NCBI RefSeq assembly: GCF_013141825.1
Contig: NZ_RZNH01000020.1
Location: 33-64,032 of the forward strand
DNA length: 64,000 bases
DNA from: Marinifilum caeruleilacunae
Lineage (GTDB): Bacteria > Bacteroidota > Bacteroidia > Bacteroidales > Marinifilaceae
Direction: 5' to 3'
This document shows positions 25,366 through 26,782 of the stretch, piece by piece; the stretch's first letter is position 1; each line of letters opens with the position of its first letter. The notes under the pieces are model-generated. The model was not told the DNA's origin, made no database searches, and worked only from the letters and a program-made list of their open reading frames with translations. The translations under genes and the position numbers were made by a program.

Positions 25366-25635
25366 ATGAATATTTTATTGGAACAAGGCTGGAGCGAAAT
25401 TGATAGTAAACTGGTAAAAAACTATGTCTTATCAGGTTTTAAGCAAGCAGTTCATTTTATCAACCTGATTGCAGAAGATGCTGAAAAAGCTGATCATCAC
25501 CCCGACATTAAATTGTATAAGTACAAAAATGTCAGAGTGATTTTAACAACTCATTCAAAAAGAAGAATTACCGAGAAGGATATCTCCCTGGCCAAAAAAG
25601 TGGATCAAATTTTTGACTCCCTAAATCAGAATTAG
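25366..25635 (+). CDS. Pterin-4a-carbinolamine dehydratase
   Basis: This 89-residue protein matches the pterin-4a-carbinolamine dehydratase (PhhB/PCD/DCoH) family. It dehydrates 4a-hydroxytetrahydrobiopterin after aromatic amino acid hydroxylation, recycling the pterin. The diagnostic active-site segment KADHHPDIKLYKYKNVRV contains the paired histidines, and VILTTHSKRRITEKD carries the third histidine. The length is typical. It converges on pheA with stops sharing TTAG. No phenylalanine hydroxylase gene is in the window, so its role here may be pterin recycling for a distant enzyme. Confidence 0.9.
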   Translation: MNILLEQGWSEIDSKLVKNYVLSGFKQAVHFINLIAEDAEKADHHPDIKLYKYKNVRVILTTHSKRRITEKDISLAKKVDQIFDSLNQN

Positions 25636-26471
25636 CGGATTTCGATACCCTTGTTGTAAGTCCCTAAGATTTTCATCCCCCTGGCCTTTTCAGAAATTTT
25701 GTTCATGGCATTTTTAAATTGCAATGGCGTTTCGAACTCTAAATCCACATGGAAAAAGTATTGCCAATTGACACCTGGAATAGGGTGTGATTGAATTTTT
25801 GAAAGGTTAATTCGTTCTTCAGCAAAACATTCTAAAATATAAGACAGGCTGCCAGGCTCGTGGCTAGTACTAAAATAAAGCGATGCCTTAGTATATCCGC
25901 CATTCGGACCAACATCCTTTTTGCGCTTTAAAAGAAAAAACCTGGTTTGATTATTCTTAATGCTCTCTATCTCTTCAGCCAGTATTTCAAGCTCGTACAA
26001 ACTTGCTGGCAAATCGCCGGCAATGGCTCCAATTCCATGCAATTCTTTTTCACGAATGTTTCTGGCACTAATGGCGGTATCTTCAGTTTCGACCAGGCGT
26101 ATGTGTGGGTATTTGCGAAAAAATGCTCTACATTGGTTTATTGCCATTGGATGTGAATGCACCTCTTTCAAATCTTCGATTTTCTGCCCTGGCAAGGACA
26201 TTAAATTTTGTTTTACTCTAAGGAAAATTTCACCTTCTACCACGAGTCCTGAATCTTGAAGAAGTCCATAATTTTGAAGTATACTTCCAGCAATGGAATT
26301 TTCTATGGCCATGATGCCCGCATCGCAAACACTTTCATCATTCACAAGGTCGACCAGTTTTGCAAAGTTTTCTGCCGGAATAATTTCAACATCTTCTCCG
26401 TAATAGGCATTGGCAGCAATATGATGAAAGCAGCCTTCCACTCCCTGAATTACAATTCTTCTTTTATCCAT
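25632..26471 (-). CDS. pheA: Prephenate dehydratase
   Basis: This monofunctional prephenate dehydratase (279 residues) converts prephenate to phenylpyruvate, the committed step to phenylalanine. The dehydratase domain occupies about residues 1-185, with the catalytic NNQTRFFLLKR segment (Thr-Arg-Phe motif). A C-terminal ACT domain (about 195-275) begins GSLSYILECFAEERINLS. In the ACT domain the usual ESRP Phe-binding motif reads QSHP, so feedback sensitivity may differ. No chorismate mutase domain is fused. It is transcribed alone. Upstream are two short Phe-rich leader frames, each followed by a terminator, so expression is almost certainly set by tRNA-Phe charging through attenuation. Confidence 0.95.
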   Translation of the reverse strand: MDKRRIVIQGVEGCFHHIAANAYYGEDVEIIPAENFAKLVDLVNDESVCDAGIMAIENSIAGSILQNYGLLQDSGLVVEGEIFLRVKQNLMSLPGQKIEDLKEVHSHPMAINQCRAFFRKYPHIRLVETEDTAISARNIREKELHGIGAIAGDLPASLYELEILAEEIESIKNNQTRFFLLKRKKDVGPNGGYTKASLYFSTSHEPGSLSYILECFAEERINLSKIQSHPIPGVNWQYFFHVDLEFETPLQFKNAMNKISEKARGMKILGTYNKGIEIR

Positions 26472-26500: not shown

Positions 26501-26528
26501 AAAAAAAAAGTCCTGATTAATCAGGACT
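26501..26528 (-). terminator. Proximal pheA attenuator (terminator hairpin)
   Basis: The 20-base palindrome AGTCCTGATTAATCAGGACT is followed on the minus strand by nine T residues, 30 bases before the pheA ATG. An alternative 9-bp helix pairs 26560-26568 (CAGGATTCT) with 26522-26530 (AGAGTCCTG) and would break the terminator. It is the decision hairpin of the second leader. Confidence 0.9.
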
Positions 26529-26549
26529 CTCATTTACTTTATGCTGTAT

Positions 26550-26630
26550 TTAAACCATAAGAATCCTGTCCTTCTCGTCTCCAAAAAAGAAAAAGCTAAA
26601 AAAGAAGCTAAAGAAAAATATGGTTCTCAT
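26550..26630 (-). CDS. Phe-rich leader peptide, proximal to pheA
   Basis: A 26-codon frame begins ATG at 26630 and ends TAA at 26550. Residues 5-7, 9-11 and 13-16 are phenylalanine (10 in all), separated by serines at 8 and 12. The rest reads GDEKDRILMV. It sits between the two terminators upstream of pheA. The leader sequence AACCATA just before the first Phe codons (26619-26625) can pair with TATGGTT at the end of the frame (26553-26559). That helix encloses the antiterminator strand in its loop, so a ribosome stalled at Phe codons would free it. This is the expected design of a phenylalanine attenuator and is too short for normal gene calling. Confidence 0.88.
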   Translation of the reverse strand: MRTIFFFSFFFSFFFFGDEKDRILMV

Positions 26631-26638
26631 TTTATCGT

Positions 26639-26665
26639 AAAAAAAAAGAGCCTTAAAAAAGGCTC
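26639..26665 (-). terminator. Distal pheA attenuator (terminator hairpin)
   Basis: GAGCCTT pairs with AAGGCTC around TTTT and is followed on the minus strand by nine T residues. It lies between the two leader frames. A competing helix AAGAAGG (26691-26697) with CCTTTTT (26656-26662) would disrupt it. Confidence 0.88.
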
Positions 26666-26695
26666 AGTTAATATTTTAGATTACACAAAACCTTC

Positions 26696-26749
26696 TTAGC
26701 ATGATCTGCTAAAAAAGAAAAAAAACTGATTTGTGTAATTTCTGTTCAT
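26696..26749 (-). CDS. Phe-rich leader peptide, distal from pheA
   Basis: A 17-codon frame from ATG at 26749 (or one codon earlier at 26752) to TAA at 26696 reads MNRNYTNQ, five consecutive phenylalanines, then SRSC. ATTACACAAA, just before the Phe codons (26730-26739), is perfectly complementary over 10 bases to TTTGTGTAAT after the stop (26680-26689). The antiterminator strand lies in the loop of that helix, the same arrangement as in the proximal leader. Promoter, leader peptide, helix and terminator therefore form a complete attenuator upstream of a second one. Confidence 0.82.
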   Translation of the reverse strand: MNRNYTNQFFFFFSRSC

Positions 26750-26774
26750 CATCTATAATTTGCTTTGTTTGAGT

Positions 26775-26782
26775 CAAAGGTA
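26775..26782 (-). promoter_or_regulatory. -7 element (TACCTTTG) for the pheA leader transcript
   Basis: Minus-strand TACCTTTG matches TAnnTTTG about 25 bases before the first leader ATG. It predicts a start site near 26768 and a 5' leader of roughly 300 bases before pheA. A -33 box is not clear. Confidence 0.6.

Follow-up and report, generated by a model that had tools for sequence, protein, structure and literature searches.

Two Phe-rich leader-peptide attenuators are predicted in series upstream of pheA in Marinifilum caeruleilacunae and relatives

The pheA gene of Marinifilum caeruleilacunae very probably lies behind two ribosome-mediated attenuators that are arranged in series on one transcript and that both sense charged tRNA-Phe. 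In the window, the 64,000-nucleotide stretch of DNA analysed here, two short Phe-rich ORF units follow one another ahead of pheA on the minus strand. Both present the same parts in the same order, namely a short ORF rich in Phe codons, then a segment complementary to the terminator that follows, and finally the intrinsic terminator itself (Table 1). The initial annotation had placed two Phe-rich frames and two intrinsic terminators between a promoter-like motif and pheA, an arrangement that the coordinates and the detector and shuffle counts reported below confirm. Its reading as tandem Phe attenuators is supported by the anatomy, conservation, covariation and spacing of the units and by the match between leader codons and operon content, all read from sequence.

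Table 1. Parts of the two leader units and of the pheA locus in the window (positions of the whole stretch)
Feature	Sequence or description	Positions	Strand	Remark
Promoter-like motif	TACCTTTG (TAnnTTTG)	26775..26782	-	sole TAnnTTTG within 620 nt upstream of pheA
Leader ORF 1	MNRNYTNQFFFFFSRSC, five consecutive Phe codons	26696..26749 (ATG 26749, stop 26696)	-	counterpart in 17/17 clade sequences
Unit 1 strand 1	TTACACAAA, immediately 5' of Phe codons	26730..26738	-	partner 26681-26689
Unit 1 strand 2	TTTGTGTAA	26681..26689	-	partner of strand 1
Unit 1 antiterminator strand	AAGAAGG, reaching into TTT	26691..26697	-	at and beyond leader 1 stop; pairs with T1 5' arm
Terminator T1	hairpin GAGCCTTTTTTAAGGCTC (26665-26648) and nine T	26639..26665	-	in 17/17 clade sequences
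Leader ORF 2	MRTIFFFSFFFSFFFFGDEKDRILMV, ten Phe	26550..26630 (ATG 26630, stop 26550)	-	kept in clade; ATG lost in L009
Unit 2 strand 1	AACCATA, immediately 5' of Phe codons	26619..26625	-	partner 26553-26559
Unit 2 strand 2	TATGGTT, ends at leader 2 stop	26553..26559	-	partner of strand 1
Unit 2 antiterminator strand	CAGGATTCT, within leader 2 end	26560..26568	-	pairs with 26530-26522 (AGAGTCCTG)
Terminator T2	hairpin GAGTCCTGATTAATCAGGACTT (26529-26508) and T run to 26501	26501..26529	-	covarying in clade
pheA	prephenate dehydratase, gene behind both units	25632..26471	-	Pfam PDT, E 6.7e-52; stands alone, next gene convergent

The gene that converges on pheA encodes a pterin-4a-carbinolamine dehydratase (25366-25635, plus strand; Pfam Pterin_4a, E 8.2e-23), and the ends of the two genes overlap. 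The TAnnTTTG sequence, which we take to be the Bacteroidota -7 type promoter motif, occurs in the 80 nt ahead of the first leader in 82 of 105 pheA regions, compared with 178 of 2100 shuffles. Across 17 aligned sequences of the clade it occurs upstream of leader 1 only, as a single copy in 15 sequences and as two copies in L135 and L140. A second promoter-like motif between the units was therefore rejected for the clade. The same result answers, as far as the motif goes, the concern raised in the initial annotation that transcripts might start downstream of both units. The U-tract of T1 is separated from the ATG of leader 2 by a gap of eight nucleotides, so that a promoter of its own for unit 2, if any, would have to lie inside unit 1.

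For the pheA units, we infer stalling and termination as follows. When Phe-tRNA is plentiful, the ribosome would reach the leader stop and mask the antiterminator strand, allowing the terminator to form. When Phe-tRNA is scarce, the ribosome would stall in the Phe run over strand 1; with strand 1 covered, the antiterminator strand would bind the 5' arm of the terminator and polymerase would continue. Unit 2 would then repeat the Phe decision. Because the decision would be made twice, read-through would roughly equal the product of two probabilities, and repression may be tighter and the response steeper, if it is sharpened at all.

The pairings on which this scheme depends were evaluated in an alignment of the 17 clade sequences, of which 15 are distinct for unit 2; shuffle counts on it are not probabilities, because the sequences are related. 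For T2, 97.8% of cells are paired and covariation is 0.292 as against 0.227 after shuffling (0 of 500 shuffles as high); its measure of further pair types does not exceed shuffles (265 of 500). The column count of T1 on alignment A2 is unusable because hairpins of 18 and 20 nt were aligned two columns apart; T1 was read sequence by sequence instead. The antiterminator of unit 2 is paired in 97.0% of cells, as opposed to at most 54.1% when slid, and that of unit 1 with the 5' arm of T1 in 93.2%, as opposed to at most 78.0% (17 sequences). Covariation of the unit 2 antiterminator does not go beyond shuffles in the clade alignment (80 of 500 as high), because there is too little variation. Phe codons, terminators and antiterminators are thus kept in relatives, and the conservation check proposed in the initial annotation came out in its favour.

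A helix pairing the bases just ahead of the Phe codons (strand 1) with strand 2 had been proposed for both leaders, and it is present in both units of the window. In unit 1, this pre-run helix is paired in 79.7% of clade cells, 20 of which are changed on both sides, and its covariation of 0.431 (0.295 shuffled) lies above all 500 shuffles; two of five measures do not exceed shuffles (double-change pairs, 186 of 500; further pair types, 157 of 500). In unit 2, the helix is paired in 58.1% of cells with a double change in one pair; it persists in the Marinifilum part of the clade, whereas most of the Labilibaculum part has lost it, and overall it fails in about half of the clade. The proposal is therefore supported for unit 1 and, for unit 2, in part of the clade only. 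The companion claim, that the helix and the antiterminator exclude each other topologically, needs amending for unit 1: exclusion there appears to be partly a direct overlap, since the predicted antiterminator duplex enters the helix strand by a few bases, as it does in classical attenuators with 1:2, 2:3 and 3:4 helices.

An alignment-free test of 192 distinct units from pheA loci (60 shuffles each) places these pairings in a broader context. Complementarity of the terminator 5' arm to the segment that follows the aromatic run reached p<=0.05 in 84% of the units, where 5% is expected, with a mean z of -3.15. The pre-run helix passed the same test in 28% and is weak as a general feature. Within the window, z values are -1.8 (antiterminator) and -1.4 (pre-run helix) for unit 1, which are modest alone, and -4.1 and -2.0 for unit 2.

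The spacing of the parts suits a ribosome that, while stalled in the run, would leave the antiterminator strand accessible and, once at the stop, would cover it. Over the 192 units, the antiterminator strand begins a median of 10 nt (10-90%: 6-13) and the leader stop lies a median of 21 nt past the last aromatic codon. Given a ribosome footprint of the generally accepted size, the strand overlaps the footprint assumed at the stop in 169 units. In only 131 units does the strand start 9 nt or more beyond the last aromatic codon; a ribosome decoding the final codons of the run may therefore mask some of it. Leaders differ widely in length and flanks, but their distances to the antiterminator strand and to the terminator are conserved.

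To define how widely such units occur, we applied a detector that requires an ORF with an ATG start, no more than 45 aa in length and with five aromatic residues in eight, and a terminator downstream of it. The sample comprised the 126 genomes of the order with a pheA match; five were not fetched (G047, G154, G178, G239, G279), and two with less than 200 nt upstream (G006, G121) were dropped, giving 119 pheA upstream regions. At least one unit was detected in 105 regions: 82 carry one and 23 carry two, and in the other 14 this detector found none. Of 2380 dinucleotide shuffles of these pheA regions, three contained one unit or more and none contained two. As a control, 67 further upstream regions, taken from the window and from L002-L009, gave a single hit, which was pheA of L007 scored from a second start. 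The strict threshold misses leaders with four aromatic residues in eight, such as leader 1 of L007, L008, L009 and their kin, and these were read sequence by sequence.

The pair is constant among close relatives. Both units are present in all 17 aligned clade sequences, with the ATG of leader 2 missing in one, and in all eight named Marinifilum and Labilibaculum loci (L002-L009; leader 2 of L009 lacks its ATG). Among 24 further Bacteroidota loci (L010-L035 minus the Lentisphaeria locus L029 and L030, which has no upstream sequence), 21 have one unit and three have none. A draw across the phylum gave a pheA match in 128 of 148 genomes; among the best 29 of these 128 matches besides the window, a sample biased to near kin because it consists of the best matches, 27 have a unit, two of them a pair. 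In Labilibaculum filiforme (L009, identical to L142), the ATG of leader 2 is lost, a GTG start is left, and T2 is weak (-5.1 kcal/mol), which may reflect decay of the second unit. Five loci of family f1, genus code g194 (L137-L141), carry roughly 90-210 nt of extra spacer between T1 and leader 2; the spacer contains apparent internal repeats and both flanking units are intact. On the protein tree, the pheA of two Lentisphaeria loci (L029 and L037, Victivallales) falls among those of Bacteroidota; at a relaxed threshold both loci have one aromatic leader unit, and at the strict threshold only L037 scores.

Tandem pairs recur well outside the clade. Within the order, the 23 tandem regions are spread over 14 family codes. 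A rapidly built tree of 79 pheA proteins, in which some branches are long and some placements unsure, requires at least six changes of the tandem label; three are forced by well-supported branches and one arises only because the detector scores L009 as single. It is unlikely that the pheA-proximal unit alone regulates, with unit 1 as a relic or a leaky passage left by an older duplication. Most pheA regions do have a single unit, and the first terminator is the weaker one both in the window (predicted energies of -9.5 kcal/mol for T1 and -11.9 for T2) and, slightly, over the 23 tandem regions (medians of -14.1 and -15.0 kcal/mol, p=0.045). Such a relic is at odds with the retention of unit 1 throughout the clade, where its pre-run helix covaries and where it persists even with the long spacer behind it, and with the occurrence of tandem pairs in 14 family codes and in three operons of this genome.

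If both units act, they appear to read the same signal. Together the two pheA leaders of the window contain 15 Phe, one Tyr and no Trp codons. Over the 23 tandem regions, the Tyr+Trp fraction is alike in the two units (medians of 0.45 and 0.44, p=0.21), and TAnnTTTG is found no more than 80 nt ahead of leader 1 in 15 regions and between the starts of leader 1 and leader 2 in three. These codon and motif data suggest that, in most cases though not all, one promoter precedes two units that read one and the same signal. A tested tandem pair with two signals exists in the Salmonella mgtCBR leader, where ATP and proline are reported to act independently and additively in what the excerpted text calls a 'singular example' (PMC3641672). 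The likeness to that excerpt lies in two short ORFs in one leader, each within an attenuator. The pheA sequences would agree with this layout on a putative single transcript: they show two ORFs, two terminators and, in the clade, promoter-like motifs confined to the region upstream of leader 1. Real attenuation with different inputs, for instance general translation or another amino acid for leader 1 and Phe for leader 2, would fit a leader 1 that is short and, within the clade, contains only four or five codons for Phe; we consider it quite improbable, because both window leaders are Phe runs and the Tyr+Trp fractions of the two units match. Different amino-acid signals for the two units are rejected by codon content across the tandem regions. 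By codon content, the pheA pair thus differs from the mgtCBR leader, as excerpted, in using the same amino acid twice.

The strongest argument for serial Phe attenuators with codons as the sensor comes from genomes in which pheA and tyrA have been separated. Linkage was assigned in 121 fetched genomes: 96 are linked, 21 are unlinked and four have no tyrA match. The 93 linked genomes with a leader entered the comparison, and in their operons Tyr codons are mixed with Phe codons at the equivalent place of the leader. The fraction (Y+W)/(F+Y+W) has a median of 0.44 and a minimum of 0.17 in these leaders, compared with 0-0.20 in eight genomes in which pheA stands alone (p=2e-6); three of the 93 also fall below 0.20. 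A few chance ORFs are counted among the leaders, so that the contrast is diluted. The pheA-alone set was hand-picked after looking, and its members are not independent (five family codes); the criteria were absence of linkage to tyrA, presence of a leader, and non-aromatic or opposite-strand genes next to pheA. One member, G244, has no tyrA match and was grouped with G038 because the genus code and neighbours are identical. Four unlinked genomes with mixed leaders (G041, G140, G149, G169) were left out, as the gene after pheA looks, by sequence, like an aminotransferase or a DAHP synthase. Also left out were G270 and G278 (unlinked, mixed leader, downstream genes not read), seven unlinked genomes in which the detector found no pheA leader (G072, G108, G142, G163, G176, G256, G268), G006 (no upstream sequence) and G058, G260 and G282 (no tyrA match).

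The tyrA operons of these genomes complete the contrast. In seven of the eight pheA-alone genomes, the leaders of the tyrA operon have fractions of 0.44-0.68 (p=7e-4). In G018, a pheA leader reading MTRFFTHFFFFFTQQ can be set against a tyrA leader reading MNNTFGYYAFYYYFFYNN, and in G038 the corresponding pair is MITINNSFFFFFFRSDPEKGL and MAPVHTYYAWSFFFFYFQNKRGHAV. Leaders of a pheA outside the tyrA operon are thus almost pure Phe by their predicted peptides, and the tyrA operon has Phe/Tyr/Trp leaders of its own. This split with matching leader codons resembles a natural codon-swap experiment and argues that the leader codons are the sensor and follow operon content. In G038 and G244 (L250 and L251), where the pheA leader is Phe-only, the genes next downstream resemble ilvD and acetolactate synthase by the look of their sequences.

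The same data bear on the view that the aromatic-rich ORFs encode small functional peptides, acting at the membrane or in trans, with control of pheA secondary. The ORFs are hydrophobic, and a trans-acting leader peptide is described for another system in the excerpted source (PMC7298713). We nevertheless judge this very improbable, given that length and flanks vary while the spacing to antiterminator and terminator is kept, and that F/Y/W content tracks the downstream genes. Finally, that poly-T tracts of AT-rich intergenic DNA mimic Phe codons by chance or serve as slippage sites is hardly credible: Phe codons do form T runs, in a region rich in A and T, yet the scarcity of even single units in dinucleotide shuffles, on which we rejected a chance artefact, and the Tyr codons mixed with Phe codons in linked operons stand against it.

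Attenuator-like leaders also precede other amino acid operons of this genome. The aminotransferase-tyrA-DAHP synthase/chorismate mutase genes form a separate operon (G000:C14) with tandem Phe/Tyr/Trp leaders, MKTVSTYISNYFYFWFYFYPTR and MSNRAFTYRFYFYYFWFNTNRAGCLIP. All 19 clade genomes that were read have both leaders, although in six the detector did not pick up the first terminator. The ilvD operon, located outside the window (L265, G000:C29), has tandem Ile/Val/Leu leaders (MPLSNVIIINVIIRVLLGHGTRLRMF; MLSFNVVIIVIIISIVIIKMRIREDVHTQ) and two terminators. Of 34 genomes with a match, 30 family loci were read, and the candidate ilvD pair is kept in 23 of these plus one doubtful case. Single leaders with a terminator precede hisG (L262, G000:C43:71510-71974; MKFIALHHRHHHFTYQQVS, HH-HHH) and trpE (L263, G000:C14; MFGLNSKYWWWHNCNLSNTMSGSVLPMC, WWW), and neither locus has an Rfam family at the gathering score. 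Taken over these operons, leader-peptide attenuation, single or double, looks like a general mode in this genome, as far as sequence can indicate. Two genomes with different genus codes (G298 and G342; L273 and L278) share an identical pair of ilvD leader peptides, and 532 of 560 bases upstream of ilvD are equal by position, which may point to transfer of an ilv operon.

The proposed mechanism is of a known kind, described in textbooks. A comparative study of attenuation by Lopatovskaya and colleagues is said to exist and may mention Bacteroidetes pheA. The enterobacterial pheL-pheA system (Rfam RF01859, Phe_leader), for which an attenuator helix scheme is established, likewise places a Phe-codon leader and a terminator before pheA. 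Among Rfam families, Phe_leader matches unit 2 best and is one of the better matches of unit 1, in both cases at full length, with scores of 30.8 and 21.4 bits for the two units, below the gathering score of 55. For unit 1, the sRNA family AaHKsRNA20 scores higher (25.1 bits), also below its own cut-off. The units would work like Phe_leader but, with matches below the cut-off, are not filed as its members; the window differs in having two units in series and in belonging to another phylum, and we claim no homology. A T-box or riboswitch was rejected, as neither the window nor nine related loci gave an Rfam match at the gathering score. The Bacteroid-trp RNA (RF01692) is a trp leader attenuator; it has no match at the gathering score in the window or the trpE locus.

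Precedents exist within the phylum. The initial annotation knew of no described tandem pair for pheA in Bacteroidota, and none was found among the open-licence papers listed; the phylum does, however, offer a precedent for a structured pheA 5' element and for attenuation. The consulted section of a study of Flavobacteriaceae reports a structured element 5' of pheA without an Rfam hit, along with clues for leader-peptide attenuation before amino-acid operons (PMC9723704). Phylum and gene are shared with the present case, and that section gives no leader sequence, tandem arrangement or link between codons and operon. The Bacteroid-trp RNA is listed as a candidate RNA of Bacteroidetes in the tabulated part of another survey, which also has a 'pheA' motif, from Actinobacteria (PMC2864571). 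Leader-peptide-like sORFs in long 5' UTRs are noted for Bacteroides thetaiotaomicron in the excerpted text of PMC7366714, and an excerpt of a 2010 survey regards leader-peptide attenuation as proven only in Proteobacteria and Actinobacteria and then adds Firmicutes (PMC2965389). Among the matches listed in a search of open-licence PMC papers, neither a same-signal tandem pair nor codon re-partition was found, and both are apparently unreported.

A wider reading, which we hold to be evenly poised, is that the leader-peptide attenuators of Bacteroidota are stackable, re-codable modules: the pheA unit may have been doubled or reduced several times, the daughter leaders may have been re-tuned after the aromatic operon was split, and two units in series may act as a multiplicative filter of one signal. 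If this is true, the serial pair, in contrast to the two-signal tandem already known, would switch steeply and leak very little, and re-tuning after the split would leave Phe alone as the signal for pheA and Phe, Tyr and Trp for the tyrA/DAHP synthase operon. Leader-peptide attenuation appears to be common before the aromatic amino acid genes of Bacteroidota and often doubled, and the doubled form raises the question of why two sensors of the same amino acid stand in series and how they affect leak, gain and noise.
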